Assembly: GCA_036172665.1 (NCBI GenBank)
Contig: CM069870.1
Coordinates: forward strand, 67,022,212-67,086,211
From: Prosopocoilus inquinatus
Taxonomy: Eukaryota > Arthropoda > Insecta > Coleoptera > Lucanidae
Reading direction: 5' to 3'
DNA length: 64,000 nt
Positions 4,675-59,791 of the stretch are shown here, piece after piece (position 1 is the first letter of the stretch; every line of letters begins with the position of its first letter). The position numbers and the translations under genes were made by a program. Below the pieces are notes generated by a model. The model had not been told where the DNA came from. It worked only from the letters and a program-made list of their open reading frames with translations, and did not search any database.

Positions 4675-5545
4675 TCGGTGTTGCAGCGTGACTCAGTTGC
4701 AGCTGTCTATCGGGAATGCATCATAAACTTCGGTTAATGCGATCGTACCAATATAGGTACGTCATAGTGGCGACCTCGAGGAAATGGAATTTTCTCTCTC
4801 GGAAATGCGTCAAACTTCGGTCAAAGCGATCGTAGCAACATCGCACCTCTACGACCCTCGAGCAGGTGCGTCTTAGTGGCGACCTCTAGGAAATGGAACA
4901 TTCACTGCGTAACTAGCCGCACACCTGGTACGAGAAAGAGCAGAAGAAAATGCAGAAGCGAAAATAAAATTCCTCTGTGAAAACAAAGAAGTCCTACTTA
5001 ATGTTTAACTTACAGATCTGGATAATCCGTTCGAAAAAGTTTGCTCGAAAGCAAATCAGATGACTCGTAAGACTTATATAATTCCAGACAGATTGCACTA
5101 TAGAATTTTGCAACCCAATTGTACACAAATTCACGCAACTAAACAAACCGCGTATTTACCTTAACGTGTCGAATAGTGAAGGGCGGTGAAGAAGGAAGCC
5201 GCCGAGTGCCGACTCCCTCTACAAGTCAAAGTGACGAGCCAATCCGAATACAGGACGCGAAGAGCGGGATCGCTTAAAACCAATGAAAATACTTAATTTT
5301 AAACGGCAAGAGATTGTCACTTCCGGGGCCCTATTCTCAAGTCACTCGACTATGTGTCGTATGCGAAAATGACGTCAAAATGACGTAGTCTTTTACACAA
5401 AACTACACAGATCGTTCGAGACTTGACGTCATTTTCGCATACGACACATAGTCGAGTGACTTGAGAATAGGGCCTCCGGGACGCAATGTTGTCACCTTAC
5501 TGAATCAAGCACATTCAACACGTGGTTGCCGAAAAGTAACTAGAA
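4675..5545. repeat. Dispersed repeat, copy 1
   Basis: Homologous along most of its length to 12655-13760. Shared landmarks are 'tggcgacctcgaggaaatgg', 'gcagaagcgaaaata', 'gagccaatccg', 'acgcaatgtt' and 'cacacgtggttgccgaaa' (the last with small differences). It has no ORF of note and the type is unknown. It is useful because the second copy serves as an empty site for the insertion at 5327-5474. Confidence 0.65.
5327..5474. mobile_element. 148-bp MITE with ~50-bp terminal inverted repeats
   Basis: It begins GGCCCTATTCTCAAGTCACT and ends with the reverse complement, and the arms are nearly perfect. It is flanked by TCCGG at 5322-5326 and 5475-5479. The paralogous repeat near 13688 lacks it and has one copy of the target, which confirms an insertion with a 5-bp target duplication. 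Confidence 0.85.
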
Positions 5546-6680: not shown

Positions 6681-9600
6681 ATGGATGAAAGTTTCGTGCA
6701 TTTCTACCTCTTCGCAGACCCAAACGATTGTTCGAAAGGCGTCCGAATCAACTCGCTCAAAACCAACAAGTTCCCCATCAATCCAAACTTGCCCGTAAAA
6801 ATTCTCTGCCATGGTTGGATGGATGACAAGAAGTCTTTCTGGTACGAACCCACGGTTTCTGCGTATTTGCAGAAGGGTGGCGTGAACATAATCACGACGG
6901 ATTGGGGCAAATATGCGAAGGCCTGTTATGGAACTTCGGTGAAGACGGTCAGGACCGTTGGGTATTTCATCGCCTTGCTCATCACCGAGTTGGCTCAGAT
7001 TTATGGGATTCCGTTGAGCAATTTTCATGTCATCGGGCATTCCCTGGGATCTCACATAGCCGGATTCGCTGGTAATTTTTTTTAATTTTCAAAAAATTAA
7101 TCGCTACGTACAGGGTGTCCCACTTAAGGCGGATTCTTTCATACCTCTCTAGGTATTAATTTTAAGAAAAAATGTTTCTAATGAAACTTTTACAGGATCA
7201 TGTAGAGCATATTCTAAAATTACTTTGACGTATACAGAGTGTACATGATAGGTACGGATTTTACTCTTGCCATAGATATCCAAGCTATCCTAAGAAGAAA
7301 CTTCTATTGCTGAGGATGAGAAAATGAGAGCAAACTTGCCGTTTTTTTAATGGTTAAATATTATTTAGAAGTCGATCGTCTTTCGTTGTGTAAAAAAAAT
7401 CTAGCCGCTTTACGTACGACAGCTTTATTAAGCTGGCTTCCCACGGTGCGCACCTTCAAGTCTCCGTTTTAGTTCGTGAGGGGTTGGACGATTTCGGTGA
7501 TTTACGAAAAATAATCGACTTTTTTACATGCAAATAATTTGGGTCGCTTCTCAGACGTTTACTTCACAAAAAAAAAGAATAAACGTTGCTTTTCGAACGC
7601 CGCGCCGTTTGTTTGGTTTTGTTTTCTTAATCAAAACAAGTCTTCCACTTATTTTGTCAAGGTTTAGTTTCGGATGAATTTCACCGAAAATTAATCCAAA
7701 ACAAAAAATTAATCTTTATTTTATTTTTTTGGTAAGAATTTACTGAAAAGTCGTTCGTCTTTTGTTTAGCTTAAAAGTCGAGTCGTTTTGCGGACATCAT
7801 CGGTTTTAAAAGAGCCGAACCAATTGCAGCACTTGAGCAGCGGTCTTGAACGATCGCCTTTTGTTTTTAATCGAAATTAAATTAAATATTTTACTGAAAA
7901 GTCGATCGTCTTTTACAAATAAATCGAGTCGCTTTGCGGACGTCAACTTTATTAAGCGGGTTTCCCACGATGCGTGCTTCCAAGAGCGAGCACAAGTCTC
8001 CTTTTTATTTCGTGAAGGTTTAGATTTCTATGATTTGTAGAAAAATAATCGACCGTCTTTTGTTTCATCCAAAATTGAGTCACTTTGCTGATGTTGTCTG
8101 GAACGTTGAATGTCATCTTGTCGACCGTCTTTGCCTTTTTAATCAAACCGATCAATGTTTATTTTTCGACGAATTTCATCGAAAATAATCTTTTGTTTTA
8201 TCCAAATTCGAGTGGCTGCGCGGGAGTGCGCATAAAAGTCGAGCACAAGAGAATTAAAAAATTCAAAAGTCTGGTTTCTTTTTTCTTTTCTTTTTTTTTA
8301 TTGAAAAGTCAACTGTCTTATGTTTAGTAAAAAAAAATGTAACCGCTTTGCTGACGTCAGCATCATCAACATTTTGTTTTTAATCGAAACAACGGGTTCC
8401 CCTTTTATTTCGTGAACGCTGGAATGTCGACGAATTTCACCGATAAATAATCGACTGTCTCTTGTTTGATCTAAATTCGAGTCGCTTCGTAGACCTTCAC
8501 GTTTAGAGAAAAAAAGAAAGTGCAGACTGAGCGCTTGAATGTCACCTTTTCGATCGTCATTTGTTTCGATTTCTTGTTTTTTTTTTTAGTAGATTTTAAT
8601 TGAAAAATTGATTGTCTTTTGTTTCGTAGAAAAAATCGAATCGTTTCGCAGACGTCAACATCAATGGAACAGAACCACTTACCTACTGCATTTGACCTCA
8701 CCGGCGTTCTTGATGATCTCCTTTTGTTTTTAATCGAAAAACAATCGACTGTCCTTTGTTTTATCCAAATTTTGAGTAGCTTCGCAGATGTTCACGTTAA
8801 AAAATAAAAAATAAATAAAAATAAATAAATAAACGATGAGGTGCAAATTGAGCGCTTGAATGTTGTCAGCTTTTCGATCGTCTTTTGTTTTTAATCTTCC
8901 ACTTGTGGATTTCGTTAAGGTTTAGGTATTTTTCGACGAATTTCATTGAAAAATAATCCATCGTCTTTTGTTTTATTCGAATTCAAGTGACTTCGGACAG
9001 TCGAAGACAATCATAAACGATTAAGCGCGTCTAATTTGTCACCTTTTTAAACGTGATTTTTGTGTTAGGTGTCATTTGTTTGATTAAAAATTCAAAAATG
9101 ACGTTGTTTTCATAGAAATCGTTCTTTTTATACTAAAGTAAATTCTCGCTTGATGTGTAAAGACATAATAAATTTTTAAATGTCGCCCATTTTTCTAACG
9201 TTTCGCTCTCAACAGATGGTGTCTTTAGGGAATAGCGCCCGAATATTTTCGCATGAGAATCCCCCTAAACAAACGTAATTTGAGTAGCAATACGATAGCA
9301 ATAAAGCAAACAAACGCGCAGAGAAAGGTTCCTTTTTAAATTCGTGAAATATGCATCATATTTATGAACAGATAAAATAGCGACATCTTACGTTCGCTTT
9401 TTGACCTGACAATGCAATAGGATAGACAAATTGAAGCGGGATTTGCTCCTAATAAGTCTCCCATGCAAGGCGGCCATGCTTGCTGTCAAAGCATAATGAA
9501 AGATTTAGAAAAATTTTGTGCAAATCGTTTTTGATTGCAGTGAGAACCTCGAGCATGGCCGCCTTGCATGGGGGACTTATTAGGAGCAAATCCCGCTTCA

Positions 9601-12600
9601 TTTGTCTATCCTATTGCAATGTCAGGTCAAAAAGCGATCGTAAGATGTCGCTATTTTATCTGTTCATCACTCTTATATCGCAATTGCGAATAAATTGGGC
9701 AAGTCGTTTTTGTTTGCGGTGGGAATGTTGAGCTACGTCTCTGCTGAAGAAGCCCCAAGCAGAGCTGAAACAGCTGTACAGAGGCTGCTCGAGGTTTTCA
9801 CTGCAATCAAAAACGATTTGCACAAAATTTTTCTGTATCATATTTATGTCTGCAATGTCTAAAAAAAGAAGACTGCTACTTCAGGAACGTAGGAATTATA
9901 ACTGATATAAACTGTAACATGTTTTATGTACGTAGTCAAAGATAAAATAACATTTTTTCATAAATAATCTTTAAACGTTTCAATACAAATTATTAATTAT
10001 AATTTGGGAAAGACTCATTTTTGAACGCAAGTGTACATGAGCTTTTTTCTTCGTATTAACAAGTAGAATACGTCCCTGAAGTAGCGACAATATTTTTTTA
10101 CACCCTGTACATTTGCCATAAGTATCTATTTAATTAATTTTAATTTTGATGGTAGCTTAAACTAAGAAAGTAAATGAAATTATTGAAACCTAAAAAAATA
10201 CTGCCACAATTTTAGTAAAAATCAGAAACATCGTTTTTAGTCTTTTATAATTACGTCTCAGTTTTGAATAATAAATTAAATAAACAAATAACAAGGCGAT
10301 TATAAATTTAAGGTCACCAACAAATATTCTTACTTAATCTTTATAATCTGTTTTTTTTTGATAGATTGAGTCGTCGTACCTACTTCCTTATCTAATTTAA
10401 TCTGCGTTATTTACCGACACCTTTCCTCGACTCGTTAAGCATGTGTTTACATTTTTGCGATTGCGTGATTGCGTTCTTCAAACTTCAGTTTAGCCGAATT
10501 CTTGATTTCAGGAAAGAACATAATTGCGGAAAAGAGACAAACAATCGGCCGAATAACCGGGCTGGACCCTGCCGGACCGTCTTTCATGGGGAAACCCCCG
10601 GAGGCGCGGCTGTGCTCTGACGACGCGGCCTTCGTCGACGTCATCCACACCGACGCGGGTGGGGCCGGGTACAGGGATTCCTTGGGGCACGTCGATTTTT
10701 ACCCGAACGGAGGAACGAAAAAACAAAATGGCTGCAAATCATTGGACTGTAAGTTAAATAACTGCGGAAACAAAATTCAGTCATCATATCGCAGGAAAGT
10801 CTGCCTTATCTATAACGTAAATAATTACTTAATAATATTTACATGAAAGTTAAATTGATAACATATCGGTAATAATTACGTAAAAGGGGGTCTAATGAAA
10901 TTCGGGATAATTTCCTCGGTATTTAAATGTTTTGTTATAAGCAGGGAAAAGAATTCAGGTCACTTAGTGTTGGATGCTTTTTACGCCGAATGTACTATTT
11001 ACTCTTGCTACTTTCCGCGGCTCGAATTTTTATTGAGTAGGAGAGGAAGGAATGGAATGCGAGTTTTTCATTGCGCAGAGACTATTGTGGGCGGGCCTAA
11101 TACAGTCCGACTAAATTTTCATACTGTTTGCATAACAAGCGGCCCGAATTCTTTTCCCTGGTTATAAGCTATAAATAATATAACGGTTGAGTCGACTGTT
11201 TGAATTTCTCGCATACAAATTCGAATGATTAGGTTGGTACCAGTTCCGTAGCTGGGGGGGGGGGCGCCAAGGAAGACAGAGTCTGCCCTGGAAAATTTCC
11301 TAAGCTTCCTCTAAGATATTCTAATCTTTCAATATTTAACATCACAGGATGCCCTAAGAATCTAGCGAGATTTTGGTACTCTGTTTTTCGTTCGCATTAT
11401 CCACAGGGGATCAATGAAAATAAAAAGAAAAAACAGTCAATAAAACCGGAAACAAGGAAAATCGATGAAATTAAATAGAAATCAGAAGCGACGAAGAACA
11501 AAAAGTTAATAGTAGAGAGAATCTAAAAATAACCGACAAAATAAAACAAAAGGCGATCAATAAAGTTAAACAAAGACGAAATATTAAAAAAAAAACGGCG
11601 AACGCGAATCAGGAAAAATTGCCGAAAGTTGGTATAAAGCAAGAGATAAACGATAAAACAAAAAAGAATCTAACCTAACATAATATACAGCTTTTATACA
11701 TGATTCATTGATCAGTGACTTTTGAAAAATAAAATGAACATTTTCCGTTAATTTATTAATGTTAGTCTTAGCCCACGACTGTACCATGCGTATACCGGCT
11801 ATACCCTGTACCATATCTGTTGCACAAGTGACGAATATTAAGTAATCGATTTCTCACATACCACAATTGCGTACGCTAGAGGAAAAAAATGTTTTCAAGA
11901 TAAATAAATTTATTAAATCAATTCTACACTGTAATGGGTTTGAAAAAAATGGAAAAACCCTCTGTTTATATTAATGTTGATAAAGAAGAACGCGATTTTT
12001 GTGTTTGGCCAACATAGCGTTGCCAATTTGGTGTATTTTACACCAAATATAGTGTATTTAAAAAGCACTTGGTGCTAAAAATAAAGTTTTTGATGGATGG
12101 CCTAAATTCCGATGCATTTTTATAACAATCGGTGCAAATTCTAGTGTTTTTATAAAAGAAAAAGAATGTCTTATGGCCGGTTGTACCAAACACTTAAGTT
12201 GAACTTAAATTTAAGTACTGCTTATAATGTGACACTTGAGGTTACAAAACATTCAGTAAATCATATTCTAAGCGGTGCTTAAAGTTAAGCTGACCTTAAG
12301 TGTTTGGTGCAACTGGCCATTAGTATTTTTAGATTCTTCTCTCATTTGCGCTTCTTATTCCGAATGGAGAAAAAGGCGCCTGTGTTATTTGCCGCGTAGA
12401 AACTTTCAAAGTAACTTTACATAACCTTATTTTCATTGAAAACGTTCCTTAGAGAAGACGTTTGTGGTTATGTAATGAACTTACTTAGTAAAAAAATTAT
12501 ATTTAAATCGATTTCACAAAGTGTCTGTGGAAACAAAATTACAAATCTTATTTTATAATACAGTTTGACGCTCTGGGGTTTTCGCTGAAAATAGGAAAGC

Positions 12601-15837: not shown

Positions 15838-16964
15838 CTGAAAAAAAAAGAAAAAAACAAAAATCAAATGGCAAAGAACAATAATATTACGCTGACGATA
15901 TAGATAGGTACAAAAGGACAGAAAATATCTACAAAACTAAAGATGAGCGCAAGAAAACTTGTAGATAGTGTACAAAATAAATCTTTTATAATTGCAGTAA
16001 CGTAAAACATAAGAAAATTGAACCTGGGGTTCAGTTTAGAATCGCCCGAAACGAGATAAGACGCGTACTTTTTCTTTTAAGCTCTCGGTATCTACGTAAT
16101 AACTAATTTCTATTTCAATTGTTAATTGTTTTTACCAACTTTTTTGTAACATCACCCTGCCTTCGCTTGGAACTCCTTCACCACACAAACCTCCTAGGTG
16201 GCGCGGTGATGTCGCTTGGGGTTGATTTCTCAAAGCTTCCCACGTGCGTCCGGTACACTACATAAGAATCGCATCAACAGGTTTCCACATGCTCATCGAA
16301 AAATGGAACATAAGGACTTTACTCAATATCGTATTTCATTGAATGCGCGAAATTAAAGTAAAATATATTAATTTCCTCGTAGAAAGAAACTGTCGTTGCA
16401 ATTCTCACCCTGTAGCTTATCATTTAGAGTTTAAATGAAATAAAATGCTTTTTTATACACATAGGAACTTTGAATTCTTACAATATTTTTGAGTGTAAGT
16501 CTTTATTCAGTAATAACAGAAAATTCAATTTTAATAGAGAATTAAAATTCAAGATCAAAAGAAAATTCAAACATAATTTAAAAAAACAGGATATAAAAGT
16601 AGTAACGAATTCAACAATAACAGAAAATTTGAAAATTCAAACAAGATTTAAAAAAATATAGAATCTAAAAGTAATATCAAATTCAATAGAAAGAAATAGA
16701 CAAATCAATAGTTAAAAACAAATTTAAAGGAACAGAAAATTCAAAAACAATTACAAGATAACGTAAAATCCGATATAATATAAAAATCGAAAATGAAAGA
16801 AGATGCGAAATTTGAAGAGAAAATTGTGTGAACTACTTTATTCAAAGATAATGAAAAATTAACTTTCAGCAAAAGCAACTAAGAAACTTTGTCGTGGAAA
16901 AAGATAATTTTTGTTTCTTTAAGAAACAAAAATGTGATATTCTAAATTATTAAAAAATTATAAC
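15838..16964. other. No gene seen; A-rich 3' half
   Basis: It should hold the missing first exon of lipase gene 2. From 16470 it becomes A-rich with repeated 'aaaattcaa' words. The 63-residue ORF there is low complexity. Confidence 0.4.
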
Positions 16965-17169
16965 TAAAAAAGTAAAATGAACATATAAAATAGCGACATC
17001 TTACTATCGCTTTTTGACCTAACATTGCAGTAGGATAGACAAATTGAAGCGGGATTTGCTCCTAATGAGTCCCCCATGCAAGGCGGCCATGCTTGCTGTC
17101 AAAGCATAATGAAAGATTTTAGAAAATTTTGTGCAAATCGTTTTTGATTGCAGTGAGAACCTCGAGCAG

Positions 17170-17216
17170 TCTCTGGACAGCTGTTTCAGCCCTGCTTGGG
17201 GCTTCTTCAGCAGAAA
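17170..17216 (-). ncRNA. Hammerhead ribozyme, retrozyme C left arm
   Basis: Minus-strand copy with an intact core (CTGAAGA, GAAA), helix II AGCCC/GGGCT and helix III ACAGCTGT. Helix I uses CAGAG opposite TTCTG. Confidence 0.8.
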
Positions 17217-17663
17217 CGTAGCTCGACATTCCCACTGCAGACCAAAAACGACTTGCCCAATTTATTCGCAAATGCGATGTAAGAATGATGAACATATAAA
17301 ATAGCGACATCTTACTATCGCTTTTTGACCTAACATTGCAGTAGGATAGACAAATTGAAGCGGGATTTGCTCCTAATGAGTCCCCCATGCAAGGCGGCCA
17401 TGCTTGCTGTCAAAGCATAATGAAAGATTTTAGAAAATTTTGTGCAAATCGTTTTTGATTGCAGTGAGAACCTCGAGCATGGCCGCCTTGCATGGGGGAC
17501 TCATTAGGAGCAAATCCCGCTTCAATTTGTCTATCCTACTGCAATGTTAGGTCAAAAAGCGATAGTAAGATGTCGCTATTTTATATGTTCATCATTCTTA
17601 CATCGCATTTGCGAATAAATTGGGCAAGTCGTTTTTGGTCTGCAGTGGGAATGTCGAGCTACG

Positions 17664-17709
17664 TTTCTGCTGAAGAAGCCCCAAGCAGGGCTGAAACAGC
17701 TGTCCAGAG
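17664..17709 (+). ncRNA. Hammerhead ribozyme, first tandem unit of retrozyme C
   Basis: Helix I 17664-17669 pairs with 17705-17709. The core CTGAAGA is 17670-17676. Helix II is 17677-17681 with 17688-17692. GAAA is 17693-17696 and helix III palindrome 17696-17703. The expected cut is after C17704. Confidence 0.85.
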
Positions 17710-17974
17710 ACTGCTCGAGGTTCTCACTGCAATCAAAAACGATTTGCACAAAATTTTCTAAAATCTTTCATTATGCTTTGACAGCAAGCATGGCCGCCTT
17801 GCATGGGGGACTCATTAGGAGCAAATCCCGCTTCAATTTGTCTATCCTACTGCAATGTTAGGTCAAAAAGCGATAGTAAGATGTCGCTATTTTATATGTT
17901 CATCATTCTTACATCGCATTTGCGAATAAATTGGGCAAGTCGTTTTTGGTCTGCAGTGGGAATGTCGAGCTACG

Positions 17975-18020
17975 TTTCTGCTGAAGAAGCCCCAAGCAGG
18001 GCTGAAACAGCTGTCCAGAG
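17975..18020 (+). ncRNA. Hammerhead ribozyme, second tandem unit of retrozyme C
   Basis: Identical motif exactly 311 bp downstream of the previous one. The expected cut is after C18015. Confidence 0.85.
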
Positions 18021-18299
18021 ACTGCTCGAGGTTCTCACTGCAATCAAAAACGATTTGCACAAAATTTTCTATAATAAAAAAGTAAAGTAAAATTTTAATT
18101 ATTAGATACCATGTTTCAATAATAATTATTTCTAATGGAATTTGCCTTACTTTGGTATATATATATTTTGATGCTTTATTACACGAGTTTTCTTATGCTT
18201 GTTTGTCATAGTTTTATAAGCTGTAAATGCCTGTTTATGTATGGGACGTTCAAATATAAATACGTTTGTCGTTGGCGTTGGTTCGATGAATGAAATGAT

Positions 18300-32563: not shown

Positions 32564-33910
32564 TTAACAACGGATGTCACTTTCATTCGTCCGTAAATAA
32601 TAATTCCCCGACGCCGTCCTCGGTATGTCTTCACCGAGCAAAATCGCCTTGTTCTTCTCACACCCTCCTCTTAAGTACCTCTCCCAGGACTCGCAAGGTT
32701 TCGCGAAAAACTTCTTACCCGCGATCGACTTTATAAAATATTGATGACTACTGGCATGGCTGCAAAACACTGGAGAGAGAAAAAAAATTGTAAACTTGCA
32801 GAAAAAAAAATATCACAACAACGGACATACGGTCTTCGTATTTCACGTCCAGTTTGACCAAGGAGCATCCAGGTTGAACGGCGGTTCCACCGTTCGGGAA
32901 AAAATCCACGTCGCCTATGGAAAACCGAAAGCCGAGGGTCCCGCCGTCCGTGTGGATCACATCGACGAAATCCGCATCGTCCTTGGACAATCTCTCCGTG
33001 TTTCCGGTGGTAATCAAATCGAAAATCGGGGCGGCCGGATCTAACGCGGTAATCCTCCACAGCTTCCTTCCGCTGAGCTCGAAGACGCGCTTACCAGCGA
33101 AGCCCGCGACGTGCGAGCCCAGCGAGTGCGAAATTAAATGGATGTTCTTGAGGGGCACCCCCCGTTTCTCGTGCAGTCTCACGATGAAATCCCCGATTTT
33201 TACGCCTACTGGCTTGGCGAACCTCGACGCTGTGAGATAATCGGAATCGCCTTTCGAAGACCAATCGGTTGTAATCACGTTGTAGAATCCCTTCTTGAGG
33301 TAGGCGTTGAGGGTGTTTTCACACCACGTGACGTTGTGGTGTTCCGTCCAACCGTGCACCAGGACCTTGACCGGGTGCTTCTTATTAATGACACCTAAGG
33401 CTTTGTCTTTGTTTAATAGCACCTTACTTCTTTGCCTGGTGTACAGGTAGTAAAGCACGTCGGTTTCGTTCACCTCATCGTTGCTAAGAGCTAATGATGG
33501 TAACTCGAATGGTAAATTGTTGGCTATTTTCAGGAGGTCATTGAAGAGGATGTTTTCTTGGAGGCCGATGTTACCTGCGACGGTGATTTTAGAGTAGCTG
33601 TGAACTGAACTCTTGATTTCCGGTTGGAACCGCTGCAGGTGGTGGTCTTGTTCGACTAACAAGAAGCAGGAGCAAGACCCACCAGTAGCACGACCACCAC
33701 CACCAGTGGCCCTGAGGAAGTTCTTCTGTAATGAAGAACGAAACGTCGGCAGTGGAATGAATCCGTGATACGCAGTACCAACCGGAAGCCAAGAATTCAA
33801 CCAGGGACGACGGCCAGGGAAACCGTGGAAACTGAGATTTAAAATTACTTACTTCTACACATTAACAGGAACGTCGCAAGTGAAAAATAATTCAGCACGG
33901 TCCTGGTCAT
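32564..33910 (-). CDS. Lipase gene 4: secreted pancreatic lipase/phospholipase A1-like with SHSLG elbow
   Basis: Minus-strand exons 33910-33853, 33604-32831 and 32769-32564 give 345 residues. Exon 1 encodes a signal peptide (MTRTVLNYFSLATFLLMCR) and ends at a consensus donor GTAAGT. The phase fits only the acceptor TTCAG at 33605-33609. HGW is at 103-105. The triad is Ser180, Asp208 (ITALDPAAP) and His282 (LFCSHASS). The usual GHSLG reads SHSLG: the first glycine of G-x-S-x-G is a serine (TCG codon), while the nucleophile is kept. Such a change can alter or lower activity. The long frame that reads upstream of exon 2 to an ATG at 33800 (Gly- and Arg-rich) runs into a ribozyme-bearing insertion in intron 1 and is not protein. 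Convergent with lipase gene 3, 4.7 kb away. Confidence 0.9.
33605..33852 (+). mobile_element. HHR-bearing retroelement filling intron 1 of lipase gene 4
   Basis: The 248-bp intron is made almost entirely of one insertion: inverted ends 'tttccggttggaacc' (33617-33631) and 'accaaccggaagcc' (33778-33791), a foldback part (ggtggtggtcttg / caagacccacc), a hammerhead, and a tail shared with 4219-4250. The hammerhead is antisense to the lipase transcript. Target duplications could not be defined. Confidence 0.65.
33700..33755 (+). ncRNA. Type I hammerhead ribozyme, second family
   Basis: Core CTGAGGA at 33712-33718, helix II GTTCTTC/GAAGAAC (33720-33726 with 33733-33739, one unpaired A before it), GAAA 33740-33743, minimal helix III ACGT 33743-33746, and C17 at 33747. 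Helix I is GCC/GGC next to the core plus CCAC/GTGG beyond an internal loop. All essential core bases are present. It differs from the retrozyme family in sequence throughout. Confidence 0.75.
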
Positions 33911-34588
33911 GGCGAACTATGTTCATCCGCAAATGAAATTCCCCGGTTTATTAAAGTCGCGTTTTTCTCATGGCGTTAGCTCATCGTGAATGCATAAATA
34001 ATTGTTGTGGTATTTGAGCGAGCAATGTCAAACTCGATCAGATTGTGATTCGTTTCCGTTGTTTTCGATGCGAAACTGTGATAAGTAATAGAAAAAAAAA
34101 AAAACGAAATTACTTCATGGTTATGAAATTTTGTTAATGTGACTCTAGCACTATTCTATTGTTTCTTTTTCTATTTTCTTTTCTTTTTTGATTTCTTATT
34201 TCGTTGATATTTTGTACATTTTTCGACGGGGCTCTGTATTATAGCTTTTTTAAGTTTTTTTTTTTTAATTGTGCGCGTTTGTATTTAGCTCGCGCGCGCG
34301 TGCGGTGGTGTTAGTAATTTCTATCTTACAATGTTGGCATTTCTGTCGTGCGTCCAGGGTTGCCATATTTGGCGAAATTCCGCCATTAGAGCTGCATTTT
34401 AGACAAGTTTGGCGTTAAAAATTTTATTTGGTACCTGGCGCCTGATTTGGGCTACTTTTGTTCTTACATAACAATAAAATTCTGCATTCTAATACCCGAT
34501 CATCTTAAAATTTTTTAATTGGAGTAAACCATGGTTTTGTGGTAGATGTTGACAATTCTGGAAAGACAAATGAAATTTTGAATTAATA
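33911..34588. other. Upstream of lipase gene 4; no gene seen
   Basis: AT-rich, with a (CG)n-rich patch at 34290-34303. No TATA box was convincing in the first 100 bp upstream of the start. Confidence 0.4.
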
Positions 34589-35590
34589 GCGATTTCGATT
34601 GGGGTGCATTATGTGCACTCAGTGTATCTTCATCTCGTTTTATTCCATAAGGATAAAACGAGATGGAGATACACTCAGTGCGCTGAGTGTATCTCCATCG
34701 AAAGCGCTAATATAAGTCATCTAATTGTTAGGTAATTAGAATTAAATTAAAGCTCGGTTCAATCATTGCAAGTTTAGTTTAACAAGTGTTACTTTACTTC
34801 CATAGCAATAGTAATTTTTATAATTCCTTTTACAGCAAGACATTGGGCGCGTTCAGCGGACGCTCAATTGTTTGTGATTGGTTATTATCTTAATCTAAGC
34901 CAATCACAAACGATTGCTGAGTGAGTAACTCAGCTGCTGATCGTTCGCTGAATGCACCTAATGTCTTGCTGTAAAATAATAATAACAATAATAATAATAA
35001 TAGACTTTATTGTGTTGTCAAAGGAAAAGAAATATAAATTTAAGAAACAAAAAAAATAACACAATCACAAGGTGAGATTCAATAAAACACTGCTCTTCTA
35101 TCTAAGCCTTGACCAAAAAATCACAAAATATTGAAAATCAATGCCTAAAACTAAAAAAAAGAAGCAAACTAAACCATGAAAGTAAAAACAGAAAATAAAA
35201 AAGATACAATATAAATTTACAAAAATACAAAAAAAAATAATAATAATAATAATAAAGAAGAGAAAATGATTTATTATGAATTTGTGAATCCGTGATGTGC
35301 ACACCGCCAAACATGACAAAAATTATCCTGTGATAATAATAAATAGGGACGAAATCAAATAAAATGAATTAAGTAAAGTTTTTAAACACAATTTGTTTAT
35401 CAAATAAAGCAATTTTCAATGTATTTTTAAATGAATGTATACTGAGACTTTTAAAGCTGTTCGGCAGTTGATTATATACCCGTTAAACCTGAAAAAGAAA
35501 AGGATCTCTCAAGTAATGAAGTGGAGTGATATGGAGGAGAAACTCTTCTTCTGTGTCTCGTGGTGATGTTGTGCACATCTGATCTGAATC

Positions 35591-36908
35591 TTATCTTATA
35601 GTACAAGTAACCTTACTGGTTACTAAAATTTTATGAAAGCAAGAAACCGTTTGTAAATATCTCCGATTTTCCATGTTAAGCCAACCGGCTTCAACTGCTT
35701 TATGAGAAGTGTGATCGAATTTCCGTATTCCAGAAATATATCTTAGACACGACTTCTGAACTTTTTGGATAGCGCGAATACAAAAAGAATCAAGAGCAGA
35801 GTGATAAATTGGAACGCAGTAGGTAAATTGAGATAAGACAAATGTTTCACATAGTTTTTGCTTAGTACGAGCATTGAAAATCCTCCTGAAGGGATAAAGT
35901 TTTCTCAAGAAAACGTAAGCATTATTAATGTACTGCGAAATCTAGTTTCTGTAACGAAACGTATTGTCTAATGTCAAACTAAAACTTTTAGCTTTATCAA
36001 CAATGGGTATCTTTATGTTATTAATATGAATATTTAATGAAATAGACAGTTGCTCACATGTTTTTTTCTTACTAAATAATAAGATTTTAGATTTCGTAGG
36101 ATTAATGTGTAAAAAATGCTTCAAAGAGTTGCTATGGACATATTCTAAATCGGAATTTACTTTTGACTTCGCAATACGCCAGTTGGAAGGTGTAAAAGAA
36201 CGGTATAACTGAGTGTCATCAGCATATATGTAGTGGTCACAGAATTGAATATGTTTCAAAAAATGAGGAAGTGTAAATTGTGAACAGTAATGGTCCTAAA
36301 ATGGAACCTTGCGGTACTCCCTGATGTATTTGAAGAGGTTCCGACAGAGATCTATCCACAGCAACACTTCGTGACCTATCAGTTAAATAGCTGTTAAGAA
36401 GGCTAATAGCGCCGTCATTTAACCTAATATATTTTAAAATAGCTAATAAAAGCCGGTGATTAACTGTGTCAAATGCTTTACCGAAGTCAAGCAACACAAG
36501 TATAGTTATATTACCATTATCAGTAACCGATAAGATGTCACTTTCAATAGAGCAGTATTACAACTGAAATTGGATCGAAATCCTGATTGATGAGATAGCA
36601 ATAGATCATAAAGAGTGACATAGTTCATCAACTGTGCCTTCAAAACCTTTTCAAAAACTTTAGAAAGTACAGGAAGAATACTAATCGGCCGTAAGTCTTT
36701 AAATTCTTCGGGTTGTTTGACTTTAGGTGAAGGTTTGACGATCGCAAATTTCCAAACATTTGGAAATATATTATTTAGAATACAGGTATTGACAATATGA
36801 CAAACAAATGGAATAATATGAGGACAACAGAATTTAATCATAGTACGTGATACGTTATCAATTCCAAATGAATTAGATTTCAGTCTTCGAATTATTTTCA
36901 ATATAAGA
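35591..36908 (-). pseudogene. LINE 1 reverse transcriptase, 3' portion, frameshifted
   Basis: Three or four overlapping frames (36988-36506, 36497-36237, 36259-35942, 35908-35591) together cover RT motifs and the C-terminal region. 'GVPQGSILGPLLF' and 'YADD' mark the palm. Frame changes near 36500, 36240 and 35930, so no full protein is possible. Confidence 0.85.
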
Positions 36909-37002
36909 TGTGAGTCAACAATAATCACAAAGCAACACAAAACCTGTGGCTGTAATCCAAATAAATAGTGAGAAAACCCCTCGACCACATTAATTCACTG
37001 AA

Positions 37003-37045
37003 AGCGAATACGTATTTCGGTAACGAAGTTACCATCTTCAGCGCT
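37003..37045 (-). ncRNA. PLE hammerhead ribozyme, left copy
   Basis: Reverse-complement copy of the motif at 38413-38455 with the same core and helices. Confidence 0.8.
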
Positions 37046-37161
37046 AAACTGATATTAAACTTTAAAACAACAAATAAACTAAACTAGACTAGCCGCACTC
37101 CCCCCCTCACTTTCTTTGTACCGTATTATGCATGCAAAGCAAACCGGGATTCTTCGAAAAT

Positions 37162-38028
37162 CTAAAGGTCGAAGAGGCAAGAAGCGTTCGGCCCGGACTT
37201 CTCAAAATTCATTAATCTATTCCTATTTTTGTGAATCTCCAAGCTTTCGAAAGAATCTAGGTTTGTTTTGTTATTAATTTGTTTGATTAAATCTATTTTA
37301 TTTACCGAATGATTGTTTTCAAGCATGTGTAAGGCAACACTGGATTTATCAAAGCGTTTGTATTTTAAATGAGCCAAGTGTTCTTTGAATCTAATTTTTA
37401 AGGATCTTTTTGTTTGCCCCACATAAATTTGATCACAATTTTTACAACTAATTTTATATATACCTGATTTATCCTCCGAATCTACTTTATCTTTTGGATT
37501 TCCCAGCAACGATTTTAAGCTGTTATTGTTGGTGTAAACTATTCTTAAACCTAATTTTTTAAAAATTGTATTCAACCCTTTAGTATATTGAGGATAAAAC
37601 GGCATTTTTACAATTTTCTTATAATCTACCTCACCTATTTTGTCAGATTTTAGTGTGGTTATTTTATTAATCTCTAATTTTTGTTTTTGTTTCCTAATAA
37701 TGTTATAGATTACATCGGATTGGTAACCATTGTACGTGGCGATTTTAATAATTTCTTGAAGTTCTTTACTATAATTAACAGTTGATAAAGGGAATGTCAG
37801 CATCCTATGCACTAAGAAATTTAAGGCCGCTAATTTATATTGTTTGCAATGATTTGAATCCGCGGGAATGAATCTATTAACATTAGTAGATTTCCTATAA
37901 ACGTTAAATTCTAATTTATTACTATTTCTAGTTACTAATGTGTCTGAAAAGGGTAGTTTATTGTTAGTTTCAATTTCATAGGTAAATTTGATGGTGGTGA
38001 ATTTAGAGTTTAAACTTTTAAGTGATCA
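37162..38028 (-). pseudogene. Penelope-like RT C-terminus plus GIY-YIG nuclease (5'-truncated)
   Basis: Open frame of about 289 codons. It begins in the RT C-terminal region (FTYEIETNNKLPFSDTLVTR, then VYRKSTNVN), continues through a basic linker, and ends in a GIY-YIG domain: GIYKISCKNCDQIYVGQTKR, then R-(x)5-EH and a helix. GIY, the Cys-x-x-Cys pair, YVGQT, Arg and Glu-His are all present, so the nuclease half looks undamaged. The catalytic RT motifs upstream are missing, so the copy cannot move by itself. It ends ...SCLFDL before TAG. Confidence 0.88.
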
Positions 38029-38296
38029 AATTTATGTGGGGCAAACAAAAAGATCCTTAAAAATTAGATTCAAAGAACACTTGGCTCATTTAAAATACAA
38101 ACGCTTTGATAAATCCAGTGTTGCCTTACACATGCTTGAAAACAATCATTCGGTAAATAAAATAGATTTAATCAAACAAATTAATAACAAAACAAACCTA
38201 GATTCTTTCGAAAGCTTGGAGATTCACAAAAATAGGAATAGATTAATGAATTTTGAGAAGTCCGGGCCGACCGCTTCTTGCCTCTTCGACCTTTAG
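38029..38296 (+). pseudogene. Inverted partial GIY-YIG copy of the same PLE
   Basis: Reads DQIYVGQTKRSLKIRFKEH to the C-terminus in opposite orientation. It is nearly identical to the minus-strand copy (one Asn to Thr difference near the end), so the duplication arose at insertion. Confidence 0.88.
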
Positions 38297-38412
38297 ATTT
38301 TCGAAGAATCCCGGTTTGCTTTGCATGCATAATACGGTACAAAGAAAGTGAGGGGGGGAGTGCGGCTAGTCTAGTTTAGTTTATTTGTTGTTTTAAAGTT
38401 TAATATCAGTTT

Positions 38413-38455
38413 AGCGCTGAAGATGGTAACTTCGTTACCGAAATACGTATTCGCT
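38413..38455 (+). ncRNA. PLE hammerhead ribozyme, right copy
   Basis: Helix I AGCG (38413-38416) pairs with CGCT (38452-38455). Core CTGAAGA 38417-38423, helix II GGTAAC/GTTACC with loop TTC (one unpaired T before it), GAAA 38440-38443, and palindromic helix III ATACGTAT. The expected cut is after T38451. PLE hammerheads with minimal palindromic helix III are an established class. Confidence 0.8.
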
Positions 38456-38498
38456 TTCAGTGAATTAATGTGGTCGAGGGGTTTTCTCACTATTTATT

Positions 38499-38859
38499 TG
38501 TGAGTCAACAAGTTGAAATGTAAAGTTACTGTTCAGAAGCGGTATTTTATAGTCGTCAAAAATATCGGTTGCATTACCTTGTGAAAGTACTGTAGGCAGA
38601 CTGTTTAAAAAGTAATTATTACACTGATTACTGTCCCTCAAGTGATCAGGTATCTCAGCATATTTATTTTTACCAACGCCAAGTCTATTAATCTGCTTCC
38701 ATAACTCAGTACTATCACGAGACCTAGAAATGTATTCAAAATAGGCTCTTTTTTCTAAATGTAACATTCGTGTTGCAAGATTTCTCAGTGATTTGTAATA
38801 TTCCCAGTGTTGTTGCAAACCATTTGTCCTATATCTAGCTTTGGCTTTATCTCTGAGAC
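38499..38859 (-). pseudogene. LINE 1, 5' remaining portion
   Basis: Frame RLRDKAKARYRTNGLQQHWE... runs to about 38500 and is then cut by the PLE. It continues at 36908 beyond the element. The 5' half of the LINE (endonuclease) is absent: 5' truncation on insertion. Confidence 0.8.
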
Positions 38860-38910
38860 GTAAAAGGAATTACAAAAATTGCTGTTGCTACGGTAGTAAA
38901 GTAACACTAA

Positions 38911-39038
38911 GGTCCAGTTTTACAATTGCAGCTCAACTTTGAGCTGAGGTTTAAACCCTTAGCAACGATTATTTCAACAATTGTTGTGAAGGGTTTAAGC
39001 TTCGGCTCAAAGTTAAACCGTGATTGTAAAACTGGGCC
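38911..39038. mobile_element. 128-bp MITE in the right arm of the foldback element
   Basis: GGTCCAGTTTTACAATTGCA... is inverted against ...GTAAAACTGGGCC, with inner arms 'agctcaactttgagc(t)' and 'gctcaaagtt'. The left arm of the host foldback (near 34770) is uninterrupted at the corresponding place. Confidence 0.75.
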
Positions 39039-39150
39039 TTATTAAACCAAACTTGCAATAATTGAATCGAGCTTTCTTTAATTTAATTCCAATTATCCGA
39101 CAATCAGATGATTTATAGCGCTTTCGATTGGGTTGCACTACGCGCACTAT

Positions 39151-44390: not shown

Positions 44391-44394
<4 letters not shown>

Positions 44395-44513
44395 CCGTAG
44401 GCTTCCGCGGGTGTTGAATGCTGTAGTATTCTTCCGGGTAGTCCTCCGCGTTGAGTTCTCTAAAGAACTATTTGTCTTCTGACAACGTTTCGGCAAGATC
44501 TCACTTGCCATCA

Positions 44514-45050
44514 TCAGGTCTTCGCTGCTGCTTGCCTGCTTCTGCTCCTCGTCGTTACTCGAGTCACAGTGGCTTCTGGTCGCGCTGGTGGTGGTTTAAG
44601 TACCGTGTTGCGGTCACGCGTCGTTACGCTTGGTGGTTTTTCCGCTTGACTTCTTGTTGTTGGTTGATTGGGTCGTGCCTGTTGACTGCTTTCTCCTAAT
44701 CCTGATGGTCCGGGGTTCGCTGGTTTCTGGCTTCGGGTTACTGGTCCTCGACGGTCGGTGGATTTTCGGATCACTGGCCTCCAGGTGGGTGGTAGTCGTA
44801 AGGCATCATCTCTGGTGTTTAAGTTCATCTGATGTTTCTCGATTTCTATCGCTTCTCGGATGATGCGTTTGGTCTTGTGTTCTACGCTGGCAATTGTTCT
44901 GGTGTTGTCGAAATCTATTTTGTGTGAAGTCGCTTTTACGTGTTGTGCCAATGATGATGTTTTCTCGTCCTTCTCGACGGCCTTTCGATGTTCTTCTCTC
45001 CTGACGCTTATTTTTCTATTTGTTTGGCCTATGTAGACCTTGTCGACAAG
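44514..45050 (-). pseudogene. GIY-YIG domain fragment of second PLE
   Basis: Frame DLVDKVYIGQTNRKISVRRE continues EH...SLAQHVKATSHKIDF, then KHQMNLNTRDDALRLPPTWR, then a basic, proline-rich tail. The GIY part lies beyond the inversion point and is missing. The plus-strand copy (45050-45328) keeps only the first residues and the tail; the domain in between is deleted. Confidence 0.82.
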
Positions 45051-45067
45051 GTCTACATAGGCCAAAC
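45018..45067. repeat. Perfect 50-bp palindrome at PLE inversion point
   Basis: Symmetric about GTCGAC (45040-45045), arms 'tttgtttggcctatgtagac' and complement. It marks where the two PLE copies join with no spacer. Confidence 0.9.
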
Positions 45068-45319
45068 AAATGTCGAAAATCCACCGACCGTCGAGGACCA
45101 GTAACCCGAAGCCAGAAACCAGCGAACCCCGGACCATCAGGATTAGGAGAAAGCAGTCAACAGGCACGACCCAATCAACCAACAACAAGAAGTCAAGCGG
45201 AAAAACCACCAAGCGTAACGACGCGTGACCGCAACACGGTACTTAAACCACCACCAGCGCGACCAGAAGCCACTGTGACTCGAGTAACGACGAGGAGCAG
45301 AAGCAGGCAAGCAGCAGCG

Positions 45320-45367
45320 AAGACCTGATGATGGCAAGTGAGATCTTGCCGAAACGTTGTCAGAAGA
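45320..45367 (+). ncRNA. Hammerhead-like motif of second PLE (also 44475-44522, minus)
   Basis: CTGATGA (45325-45331), helix II GGCAAG/CTTGCC, GAAA (45351-45354) and a minimal AACGTTG helix III ending in GTC. Helix I is not evident: the flanks 'gcgaagac' and 'agaagac' do not pair. The inverted copy at 44475-44522 is the same. A ribozyme relic, or one with an unusual helix I. Confidence 0.5.
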
Positions 45368-45444
45368 CAAATAGTTCTTTAGAGAACTCAACGCGGAGGA
45401 CTACCCGGAAGAATACTACAGCATATATATATATATATATATAC

Positions 45445-47800
45445 ACATTAAAACCCTATTGCAATTCACGTTGCAGTGAATTTTGTTTTAAAATATTCTT
45501 CATGTGAGTAGATTGCCTTATTTATAAGGAAGTTCTTTACTTTTTGCTTAAATATATTAAGTGGTAATTTTCGTATATTTTCGGGCAGCGCATTAAAAAA
45601 TTTTATTCCAAAATAACTTGTACTCATTTGAGTTCGCCTGATTCTGTTGTTAAGAGGATATATATCACTTTTTGTACGTGTATCATAATCATGTAAGTTA
45701 GAGTGATGATTGTACAAGTTCATGTTATTTTTAATATAAAGAAGGCATTCTAGAATATAAAGTGATGTCAAAGTTAATACATTTAGCGTAATAAAAGCGT
45801 TTTTACAGTCGTCCTTGTATCCAATATCTGCCATAATTCGGATAGCACGTCTTTGTAGTCTAAAAATTATTGCTGCGCCACTAGAGTCACCCCAGTAGAG
45901 AATTGCATATGAAGCATGACTTTGAAACAGGGTTAAATAAGCTGTTCTTAGGTGCTTTTTTTGTTGTTTCTGAGATTACGGATTACAAAAATGTAACGAT
46001 TTAATTTGTTAGCCAAACTTTCGACATGCTTTGTCTATACAAGATGTTCATCTATCTCAACTCCTAGAAAATTTGTACTGATCGAGTAGTTTTCTAATTT
46101 CTCAAATGATCGAAGTGAAAACATGAGGTGTACAGTTTTCCGATCATTTTGACACAATTTGTTTGCATTAAACCAGGTGCACGCTTGTAATTGCGCTTCA
46201 TGATCCCTTTCAACAGCAAGTTCTTTTGTATCGCTCACTGATAGTAATGTTGCATCATCTGCGTAGAGTACAACATCACTTGATATCGAATTTGGAAAAT
46301 CGTTAATATAGATTATAAACAAAAGTGGACCCAAAACTGATCCTTGGGGAACACCAATATTTGATAGTAATATTTTAGATTTTCCATTTCTAGTTTCGAC
46401 ATATTGTTGTCTATTCTGGAGATATGATGTAAGTAATCTACAGCTCGTGGGGCTTATGTTATATGAATATAACTTTCGGAGTAATATTTCATGCGAAACG
46501 CAATCGAAAGCTTTGGACAAATCAACAAAAGTAGCTTTTTGAAATTGTTTATTATCAAAACATTGAATAGACGATTTAATTAAATGTGTGATTGCTTTTG
46601 TAGTAGACTGTCCCCCTCTAAAACCAAATTGTTTATCACTGAAGAGATTATTACTTACAAAAAATGTTGATAATTGTATAGACATAACTTTTTCTAAGAC
46701 TTTAGATAAGATCGGGAGGAGCGATATTGGTCGGTAATTATGCAAATTATTTAGTTCCCCTTTCTTAAAAATGGGTACAACTCTAGAAACTTTTAGGCAG
46801 CTAGGAAAAATTGCCTCCTTAATACACAAATTAATAAGTTTGGTTAATGGGACAACAATTATGTCATTAATAGCTTTGATGAGATTAACATTTAGACCGT
46901 AAGTATCTCTAGTAGCGGAAGCCTTCAACTTACATATTACTTCTCTAACTGCTACACAGGATACATAGTCAAAATTGAAATACTTTGGAGCACTACTAGA
47001 CATTTTAAGATGATTGTCTACAAAAACGAATGGATCAACATCACATTCAGGTATTTGACTAGATAGTGTTAAAGGAATATTAATAAAGAAATCACTAAAC
47101 ACATCACAATCAATTTCACAGTTAACATCATGTCTCGTCTTATTATTTCTCACTTGATTTACCACTTGCCATAATGCTCTAGATTGATTATTGGATTTAA
47201 TTACAAAATCACTGTTGGCTTTCACTTTGGCATTTTTCAAGGCCTCACGGTAAGTTGTCCGGAATCTGTTTCTTTCTTCCTTCAATGAGTTATCGCCAGG
47301 TCGCTTTTGGTATAATTCATTAAGAAGACATACAGTATTTCGCTGGCTACGTAGATCTTTGGTGAACCACTCGATCTTATTGTGGTTGATTGTTCTTTGT
47401 TTTACAATAGGAAAAGCCATCTTTATTGCGTTTTCAAGAGTATCAACAAAAAACTGGAACTTATCTTCTACGCTAATTGTATCTTCAGAAATAATACTCC
47501 AGTCGCAACCGTCAACAATATTAAAGAAATGTATTTTTCCTAAGTTTGTAATCGGTTGATACATGATCTCTTCAGTCAATCTCTGCCGCTGTGTGGTTTT
47601 CAATTTAAAAAATATGACTATATGGTCAGAGAAACCGAGGTTTATAGGTAGAACAGAAGTTAAATCAGAAGTAAAATTGGTGAAGCCATTGTCAAGTATG
47701 GAATTCTGCCCAGTACTAAAAGTAACTTTTGGGAAGAGATCATAACTTAACATAAGTTGCTTCGAATGTCAAATATTTTCGCCTATGCGGTGCTTTTTTT
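45445..47800 (-). pseudogene. LINE 2, CR1/jockey-like: endonuclease end, full RT, C-terminus
   Basis: A 572-codon frame (47753-46035) starts in the last part of an APE-type endonuclease (GFSDHIVIF), passes through a linker, and covers the RT: RVVPIFKKGELNNLHNYRPI, VDLSKAFDCVSH, GVPQGSVLGPLLF and VLYADDATLL (YADD near 46260). It is broken by TAG at 46035-46037, where the same frame continues, and by a frameshift near 45960. The C-terminal region resumes to 45466 (LHDYDTRTKSD, FFNALPENIRKLP). The tail is an (AT)n run. The 5' end is truncated. The RT core is open, so inactivation is fairly recent. Confidence 0.88.
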
Positions 47801-48835: not shown

Positions 48836-49503
48836 CTAAACAGATACATTCGAATACCGTACGTACCATGGGCGGGGGTCTTTTTTAAACAAAAAATTCT
48901 GAATGGGATTTTTGGCCAGACCAAAAGTTCAAAAATGTGGGATTTTCCTTCAGAAAACGCAAGACTTGAGACGGGTGAATTGGATTCAGATGATCTCTTT
49001 TCCGTCAGAATGCATGAATGAGATCTTTTAATAGATTGAGTTAGTTTGCGTCATCTTATTGGAACTGATGTGTCTGTATCTTTTTTATTTTGGAAAAGGT
49101 GTTTGTCCTTTGATGTTTCATAAAGAGTAACAAAGAGCATCTGAGCGTGGTTGGAAAAAACGACTAAAGCGCGTCCGTCATTGTAGGGCTTTGATCGTCC
49201 GACCACACTCAGCACTACACAAAGCATGTGCTCGTATAGTCGCACCTAAGCCACTAAATGAATATTTTTCCCTTGTTTTGAAAAGGGAAAAAACTGTACA
49301 AGCAACAATTCATTTTTTTGCTGCTGCTTTTCAAAATATTACAATCTTCTTTCCTGCAACACGTAATCCCCAGTACATTTTTCATTCTACTTACATCAAA
49401 AACACTTTCTCAAATCAACATGTTGCGAATCTCATGCTCTTTGTTGCTCTTCATGAAACCACTAAGGGATAACTTGAAAGTCATGAATATACAGTATAAT
49501 ATA

Positions 49504-50069
49504 CAGGGGGCAGCGTTTTGAAACGCAACATATATAATCTCATGTTAATTTAAAGATACTCGAATATTGTCTTCCCTAATTATTTTACAGCAAAATTCCA
49601 TTTAGGTTTCTTAAAGTACTCTTCAAGACGAATCTGTCTGTGAAGTTTGAGAATTTTTCATTCGCCCAGTTTCGAGATATCTACAAAAAATCAGTAACGA
49701 AATTCAATTATACCGAACTATCAGCACTGCCTTGATCAATAAATGTTAAAATAAATTACTGGAAAAGCTTTTTCTATCGATCCTTTTCAAAACGAACTAG
49801 AATTACTAATTACCTGTTCAGTGTTCACCATTATTGATCAAGGCCGAGCTGATAGTTTGGTATAAGTTGAATTTAGTCGCAGAATCTTTTTTAAATATCT
49901 TAAAACTCAGCGTATGAAAAATTCTCAAACTTCACAAACAGATTCGTTTTGGAGTACTTTAAGAAACCTAAATGGAATTTTGCCGTATAATAATTAGGGA
50001 AGCCAATATTCGAGCACCTTTAAATTAACATGGGATTTCCTACGTTGCGTTTCAAAATGCAGCACCCTG
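49504..50069. mobile_element. 566-bp foldback MITE, TA-flanked
   Basis: CAGGG(g/t)(g)GCAGC(g/a)TTTTGAAACGC ends in inverted orientation. The arms of about 270 bp stay alignable almost to the centre (e.g. 'gaaattttgc' / 'gcaaaattcc' and 'gatcaa' near the middle). TA on each side. Confidence 0.8.
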
Positions 50070-50144
50070 TATAATATACGTGGAATAAGTAAATACAGGG
50101 TTACAACTAATTAAAGGTCCACTATGGGGATTTCGTAAACTAAA

Positions 50145-55420: not shown

Positions 55421-55469
55421 CGAAGCTGTATAGTAAGTCTGCTCACATTGCAGTGGAGCCCCTCCTCCT

Positions 55470-55524
55470 CCTCCTCTGTAAAGCGCTATTTCGGCCCTAA
55501 TTGGGGCCTCATCAGCAGAAGAAT
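55470..55524 (-). ncRNA. Lone hammerhead ribozyme, related to the retrozyme family
   Basis: Minus strand: helix I CTTCTG pairs with CAGAGG (extended by further pairs), canonical core CTGATGA (55515-55509), helix II GGCCC/GGGCC, GAAA, helix III around AGCGCT, and A17 before CAGAGG. Flanks (TGCGGTGaa...CGAGCTA; ccactgcaat) match the 311-bp retrozyme unit. It is a diverged relative, with the canonical U at position 7 where the four clusters have A. The rest of the unit is not recognisable. Confidence 0.78.
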
Positions 55525-55795
55525 AGCTCGAGAAATTTCACCGCAATCCAAACGACAGGGATTAAAACTAATAATGCGTGTATAAAATAAAGTCAATTTG
55601 AAGCAAGAAAAAACAAAAGACAAGACAAATAAAATAGAGTCAATTGGAAATTAATATGCTGCCTGAACTTCTTAATTATCGGGGGGGGGGGGGTCATTTT
55701 AACCGTGTCTACTACGTTCGTGTTTATTTTAATTATTCGTCGGTATAATACGATGAGTCATCTACATAAGTATTTATAATAGGGAAATGTACGGG

Positions 55796-57203: not shown

Positions 57204-57285
57204 AAACTTTTTGTGAAAATTTTTTTTTTTTTTTTAGAAAAATTTTGTGCAAATCGTTTTTGATTGCAGTGAGAACCTCGAGCAG

Positions 57286-59765: not shown

Positions 59766-59791
59766 CTGGAATCACAAAGCAAGATAATTAC

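Follow-up and report, generated by a model that had tools for sequence, protein, structure and literature searches.

What kind of element occupies positions 16977 to 18074, and which machinery inserted it there? The initial annotation described this locus as a tandem dimer of a 311-bp hammerhead-ribozyme unit and read it as a retrozyme-like element. We followed up this reading in the window, that is, the whole 64-kb stretch of DNA that was analysed. A direct repeat with a period of 311 was recovered at 17476-18075 (1.93 copies, with 22 nt missing from the second unit), and each unit carried one type I hammerhead (HHR) motif at the identical position, with C17704 and C18015 as the scissile residues, as had been stated. 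The term "tandem dimer" fits the plus arm with its 1.93 direct units, but it does not describe the whole locus, which is a head-to-head palindrome. The left 503 bp (16977-17479) are the 311-bp unit in inverted orientation and carry a third HHR on the minus strand. The locus, referred to below as copy C, thus consists of a minus arm of 1.62 units and a plus arm of 1.93 units joined via 4 bp of microhomology, and two of its three HHR motifs are on the plus strand and one on the minus strand. The 12-bp target-site duplication noted before was found to bound this entire structure. In unit numbering, where position 1 corresponds to 17476, the minus arm (503 nt) starts at 237 and passes round the unit to 117, and the plus arm (599 nt) starts at 1 and stops at 288. 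The features of copy C are as follows.

16965-16976, left target-site duplication of copy C, TAAAAAAGTAAA
16977-17479, minus strand, minus arm, 503 bp or 1.62 units; outer end 117, inner end 237
17162-17226, minus strand, type I HHR motif of the minus arm; predicted scissile bond 17176/17175 (coordinates from unit positions 179-243)
17476-17479, AGCA common to both arms at the inner junction
17476-18074, plus strand, plus arm, 599 bp or 1.93 units of 311 bp; outer end about 288
17654-17718, plus strand, type I HHR motif 1; predicted cleavage after C17704
17965-18029, plus strand, type I HHR motif 2; predicted cleavage after C18015
18075-18086, right target-site duplication of copy C, TAAAAAAGTAAA

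Four head-to-head copies with common outer ends

When the 311-bp unit was searched against the 64-kb window, three further copies (A, B, and D) were found.

921-933 and 1365-1377, duplication of copy A, TATAATATTTAAA
934-1364, copy A, head-to-head; inner junction 161/132 with a few filler bases
9355-9366 and 9837-9848, duplication of copy B, ATCATATTTATG
9367-9836, copy B, head-to-head; inner junction 237/1; 94% identical to copy C
57204-57215 and 57859-57870, duplication of copy D, AAA[C/G]TTTTTGTG (1 mismatch)
57216-57858, copy D, head-to-head, reversed relative to copy C; inner junction 123/276

All four copies were head-to-head, and their outer ends were fixed, at 114-121 in one arm and at 282-289 in the other. 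In local alignments, the arms extended from inner start to outer end as 161 to 121 and 132 to 289 in copy A, 237 to 117 and 1 to 282 in copy B, 237 to 117 and 1 to 288 in copy C, and 123 to 114 and 276 to 288 in copy D. These end positions are accurate to about 5 nt because, at some ends, a few bases also belong to the duplication. The duplications were 12-13 bp long in all four copies, each different and one with a mismatch; because each copy has its own duplication, copies A-D are separate insertions. The chance of three further copies matching within 7 nt at both ends was approximately 1e-7, with a tolerance set post hoc and a sample of four copies from a single 64-kb window, two of which share an inner junction.

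The inner junctions differed among the copies, except for 237/1, which was common to copies B and C. These two copies have an identical inner junction, and each arm of copy B is shorter than that of copy C by exactly one 311-nt lap. As the duplications of the two copies differ, their common junction may have arisen repeatedly. The arms of copies A, B, and D comprised at most approximately 1.04 units each, compared with the 1.93 direct units in the plus arm of copy C, and no long tandem array of the 311-bp unit was present within the 64-kb window. A tandem array of a different, 179-bp unit was observed at 60479-61982 (8.5 copies, approximately 80% matches). Copy D had an oligo(T) tract at its position-288 end, equivalent to an oligo(A)-like tract at the 3' end of the sense arm, and the joined flanks of copy D, representing its empty site, matched nowhere else in the window. 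The longest stop-free stretch in any of the four copies was 103 codons, and the sole ORF of at least 120 aa overlapping a copy (56923-57504) had no Pfam match. In addition, a search of the HHR string against viral contigs, from which records of the window's own genome were possibly excluded, gave no matches.

Coding pieces of other kinds were also observed in the window. ORF pieces resembling lipase exons lay on both strands at 6681-33800, and the piece at 32748-33800 matched Pfam Lipase; the best named homologues, among the best 120 of 467 matches, were from Trypoxylus dichotomus (56%), Popillia japonica (54%), and Oryctes borbonicus (60%), so that the host is probably a beetle. Two ORF pieces resembling TRP-type channels were located at 59377-60025, with a Pfam Ion_trans match in the one tested. 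Palindromes of another kind were represented by a symmetric, MITE-like one of 586 bp (49494-50079, 81% alike) and by smaller similar ones at 5323-5479, 12170-12323, 34584-34712, and 38908-39041.

Hammerhead motifs and predicted RNA folds

HHR cores were found at nine sites in the window, eight of them within the four repeat copies and hence non-independent, compared with a mean of 0.275 and a maximum of 2 in 40 first-order Markov sequences, which are not real insect DNA. At the level of sequence, CUGANGA, GAAA, and UH were kept in all eight HHR motifs of copies A-D. The stem pairs examined were intact except for one C-A mismatch in stem II of copy B, and the remaining stem changes in copies B and D preserve wobble or Watson-Crick pairing. 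Stem III of these HHRs is the palindrome CAGCTG with two intramolecular pairs only. According to the available text of PMC7229834, axolotl HHRs with a short stem showed better activity as dimers. No pair of HHRs on one strand was present in copies A, B, and D. A diverged related HHR on the minus strand (55453-55540), in which stem II is kept, two stem I pairs are broken, and stem III is different, is possibly an older member of the family.

The covariance-model check suggested in the initial annotation formally failed. Rfam gave no matches at the gathering score in the whole window, but a permissive scan of 16900-18150 only placed Hammerhead_HH9 on exactly the three HHRs, at 15.8 bits and an E value of 1.3 (gathering score, 52). 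The low covariance score may be due to the 2-bp stem III. The permissive scan returned 22 matches, none reaching its gathering score. Those ranking above HH9, namely MIR8742 (58.3 bits; E value, 6e-12; gathering score, 130) and other microRNA, snoRNA, and CRISPR models, were judged to reflect the long inverted repeat or chance.

The predicted circular fold of the 311-nt unit had a free energy of -112.6 kcal/mol, versus -73.9 +/- 5.2 kcal/mol for 200 shuffles (z = -7.5), and the predicted antisense circle had -86.5 kcal/mol. The predicted fold has a multibranch loop at the base of the HHR rod, and both end points of the copies fell in largely unpaired stretches of this loop. The mean unpaired probabilities were 0.60 at 100-126 and 0.72 at 278-300, versus 0.34 overall, with single positions within these stretches as low as 0.27 and 0.01. 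All of these predictions are thermodynamic and ignore co-transcriptional folding. The earlier proposal that a dimer transcript would self-cleave to unit-length RNA became doubtful, as the predicted fold of the full plus transcript of copy C leaves one of the two HHRs free: HHR 1 was sequestered by the inverted arm (stem II probability, 0.0), and HHR 2 was free (0.99). The single HHR of the full minus transcript was likewise predicted to be sequestered, and only a transcript initiating within the plus arm was predicted to have both HHRs free (0.98 each). The retrozyme loci in the window look more like insertion products than obvious circle sources. The retrozyme-like reading itself is well supported by the 311-nt unit, the type I HHR motif, the lack of a long ORF, the duplications, the four copies, and the stable predicted circular fold.

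Penelope-like element fragments in the same window

The window also contains fragments of Penelope-like elements (PLEs).

36909-36921 and 38499-38511, duplication of PLE fragment 1, 13 bp, TGTGAGTCAACAA
36922-38498, PLE fragment 1, head-to-head; arms 36958-37436 (minus) and 38022-38500 (plus), 99.8% alike over 479 nt
37162-37812, minus strand, GIY-YIG ORF in PLE fragment 1, with a Pfam match
44391-45424, PLE fragment 2, head-to-head; arms 44418-44768 (minus) and 45074-45424 (plus), 100% alike
approximately 56704-57215, PLE fragment 3, containing a 63-nt piece in inverted orientation; HHR-like motif near 57180

The best homologue of the ORF at 37162-37812 (P0001) combines reverse transcriptase (RT) and GIY-YIG in one protein and showed 60% identity over the whole query. 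Fragments 1 and 2 differ in sequence. No Pfam match was obtained for fragment 2; the 11 matches listed included a GIY-YIG-named protein (67% identity, 46% query coverage) and an RT-domain protein (72% identity, 35% query coverage). The left arm of fragment 1 is longer by 37 nt, and this tail is predicted to form a hairpin of about -8 kcal/mol (no shuffle control). The left arm of fragment 2 is longer by approximately 30 nt, and the extra stretch has no separate hairpin in the predicted fold. Fragment 2 sits within an (AT)n tract that masks its duplication, and a 54-nt perfect palindrome lies at its junction (45018-45071). The head-to-head layout with one longer arm was therefore found in two of the three PLE fragments, namely, those with settled ends. 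An HHR-like motif lies 50 and 61 nt ahead of the shorter end in these two fragments, and the corresponding distance in the retrozyme is 59 nt; the PLE motifs were chosen by eye, were not matched by the core scan, and had their scissile positions assigned by us. The distance between the two start sites is 140 or 171 nt for the retrozyme and approximately 30-37 nt for the PLE fragments, and the ends of the retrozyme and of fragment 1 had only words of 7-8 nt in common among the matches listed.

Copy D adjoins or lies in PLE fragment 3 and starts approximately 33 nt beyond the GAAA of the HHR-like motif beside it. PLE-like remnants were seen by eye near 55100 (minus strand) and 57170 (plus strand). 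As to other RT sequences, a long RVT_1 ORF, taken for a LINE, was observed at 46035-47753, and a second, weak RVT_1 piece, under the Pfam cut-off, at 36506-36988.

Arm variants and the template of each insertion

Position 235 was A in copy C (three of three passes) and G in copies A and D and in the covering arm of copy B. Near position 279, copy C had four T (four of four passes) versus five T in all arms of copies A, B, and D. The passes of copy C differed from one another at one base only, the outer-end position 286. In the arm overlap of copy B, variants at 27, 64, 73, 89, and 110 were shared by both arms, that at 73 also occurring in one arm of copy D, and unshared variants were present at 22, 69, and 88 in the left arm and at 49 and 248 in the right arm. 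The arms of copy D differed at four sites (73, 202, 216, and 278). On balance, the shared variants favour a single template RNA or source locus for each insertion, followed by later mutation; arm-to-arm copying or gene conversion would give the same variant sharing. The scissile bond 229/230 was read through by at least one arm in every copy. Therefore, the template was not cut there and was circular, multimeric, or an uncut transcript; the copies are compatible with both a circular and a multimeric template.

A proposed route of insertion and its alternatives

We consider it probable that copies A-D represent a dispersed, partly young family of animal (non-LTR) retrozymes for which the insertion machinery was most likely that of a PLE. 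In the available part of PMC11167929, the purified PLE protein of a lizard nicks and extends both target strands, begins reverse transcription internally at two adjacent RNA sites matching the genomic tail, and favours AT-rich DNA. In the route proposed here, a source locus elsewhere would be transcribed and its type I HHRs would cut the transcript, after which part of the cut RNA would be ligated into 311-nt circles or left multimeric. A PLE ribonucleoprotein would nick both strands of an AT-rich target approximately 12 bp apart, and each nicked 3' end would prime minus-strand cDNA at one of two fixed internal sites, at about 288 and about 117. Both cDNAs would extend for up to approximately two laps, and their free ends would be joined, in some copies through short homology. 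Such an insertion should yield head-to-head arms that meet at a variable inner junction, and its outer ends should be fixed but asymmetric and flanked by a 12-13-bp duplication. Ribozyme activity of the retrozyme HHRs, the RNA circles, the PLE as mover, and priming from both strands are the steps that we infer.

The four like-ended head-to-head copies with different flanks and duplications were counted for PLE-type two-site priming, and the same layout and similar HHR-to-end spacing in two PLE fragments were counted for a PLE as mover. The location of both end points in one predicted multibranch loop also spoke for the proposed route, as did the variants shared by the passes of copy C and by the arms of copy B, the read-through of the scissile bond, the arm of 1.93 units, the RT and GIY-YIG domains in the best homologue of fragment 1, and the head-to-head inverted PLE copies of PMC3846280. 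Against a PLE as mover were counted the wider start-site spacing in the retrozyme, the lack of words longer than 7-8 nt common to its ends and those of fragment 1 among the matches listed, and the RT ORF taken for a LINE together with the oligo(A)-like tract of copy D. The route as a whole was further weakened by the inner junction common to copies B and C, as independent events need not share one, by the unshared arm variants of copy B and the four differing sites of copy D, by the missing Pfam match of fragment 2, and by the choice by eye of PLE HHR-like motifs that the core scan did not match. In addition, HHR cleavage was dispensable for PLE insertion in vitro (PMC11167929, available part), which makes it harder to argue that the HHR has a role in PLE-type insertion itself. 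What ties the retrozyme to PLEs is anatomy that they share in a single window, together with biochemical work published for a different species. No open frame in copies A-D is long enough for RT and GIY-YIG; hence, the retrozyme is not itself a PLE, and it appears to work like a PLE passenger.

A more specific version of this route seems to us possible rather than probable. A PLE enzyme dimer may hold a single circular retrozyme RNA by the open loop at the base of the HHR rod, its two subunits each using a different target strand to prime cDNA on opposite sides of that loop. If this is true, two reverse transcriptases would run one behind the other round the same small RNA, completing up to two laps before the cDNA ends are joined. 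The head-to-head copies would then record, as genomic fossils, target priming that was two-sided and circle-templated, and by definition animal retrozymes would become non-autonomous PLE passengers.

Alternatively, a LINE may have moved the retrozyme, and the inversions would be due to twin priming, in which cDNA synthesis from the second target strand starts at an internal site of the one RNA. Twin priming likewise yields antisense-left, sense-right products with duplications, and it is expected to be occasional, with a variable second start. Here, all four copies were inverted and the second start was confined to 8 nt. The arms of copy A are almost contiguous, as expected from twin priming (121 versus 132), but in simple twin priming the outer left end should adjoin the inner start of the right arm, which fails in copies B, C, and D. 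An RT ORF taken for a LINE is present in the window. The sense arm of copy D terminates 3' in an oligo(A)-like tract, and no clear A tail precedes the duplication in copies A, B, and C. Nematostella retrozyme repeats have 15-bp duplications that have been called LINE-like (PMC4918200, available part). The two PLE fragments of the window show the same asymmetry as the retrozyme copies. Overall, movement by a LINE with twin priming is unlikely.

Self-priming, in which a single cDNA would snap back and serve as its own template, perhaps from an antisense template as put forward for Penelope in PMC3846280, is quite improbable as an explanation of the copies. In the available part of that paper, head-to-head PLEs with palindromic junctions were explained in this way, and both the 54-nt perfect palindrome in PLE fragment 2 and the 4-nt microhomology at the inner junction of copies B and C fit such a snap-back. 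In a snap-back, the copied arm should stop where the first began, but each of the four retrozyme copies has outer ends separated by 140 or 171 nt, and the two PLE fragments show an offset of approximately 30-37 nt. Simple snap-back as the sole cause was ruled out by these differing outer ends, although it may aid the joining of the arms.

A fold-back, MITE-like DNA transposon with a chance hammerhead sequence would account for the long inverted repeats and the constant duplication length, and MITE-resembling symmetric palindromes do occur in the window (49494-50079). However, the outer termini of the copies are by eye not mutual inverted repeats and the inner junction is variable, which is the reverse of transposase substrates, and arm lengths of copies B and C that differ by exactly 311 require a repeated or circular template; this reading has very little probability. 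Inverted chimaeras do arise in some libraries, but an assembly or library artefact does not agree with four loci that have different 12-13-bp duplications and the same ends, nor with arms of copy B and of copy C that carry shared variants absent from the other copies. Such an artefact, or a decayed satellite DNA of the HHR type known in animals (PMC7229834, available part), is very unlikely.

Comparison with known systems

The plant LTR retrozymes described in PMC4918200 are likewise HHR-bearing non-autonomous retroelements with a proposed circular RNA route. They differ from the retrozyme of the window in their type III HHRs in LTRs and their 4-bp duplications, and they have a PBS and a PPT, according to the available parts of PMC4918200, PMC7761336, and PMC7229834. 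The animal non-LTR retrozymes (Cervera and de la Pena 2020, PMC7229834) share with the retrozyme of the window a type I HHR, a unit of 170-400 nt, duplications of more than 4 bp, a self-paired predicted circle, and PLEs in the same genome. In the available text of that paper, the animal elements are tandem repeats and inversion of retrozymes receives no mention, whereas all four copies here are head-to-head with two fixed ends. Neither a description of an inverted or head-to-head retrozyme nor a report of a retrozyme in Coleoptera was found in the literature searched, which covered few subscription papers. The retrozyme family in the window is new, in a head-to-head form with fixed asymmetric ends. 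In the parts available, PLEs are regarded as a strong candidate for the mover of animal retrozymes (PMC7229834), and either LINEs or PLEs have been suggested (PMC11722881). The copies bear on what moves animal retrozymes and on whether circles serve as the template.

The retrozyme also resembles PLEs with inverted pLTRs and a tail (PMC3846280 and PMC11167929, as far as available). Both are head-to-head with asymmetric ends, short duplications, AT-rich targets, and an HHR upstream of the start sites; the PLE start sites are approximately 30-40 nt apart versus 140 or 171 nt in the retrozyme, which is non-coding and has a 311-bp unit. In the available text of PMC3846280, head-to-head is the commonest PLE inversion, a 31-bp tail is optional on one inverted pLTR, duplications are 8-10 bp where present and lacking in some copies, and the head-to-head form is ascribed to self-priming on an antisense template. 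Within the window, the fixed ends, head-to-head arms, duplication length, and HHR-to-end spacing connect the retrozyme with PLE fragments from its own genome, and the retrozyme end points provide exact positions that can be checked in the existing in vitro assay. Priming from both target strands would offer a sense-template account of the head-to-head layout of PLEs, in contrast to the antisense self-priming of PMC3846280.
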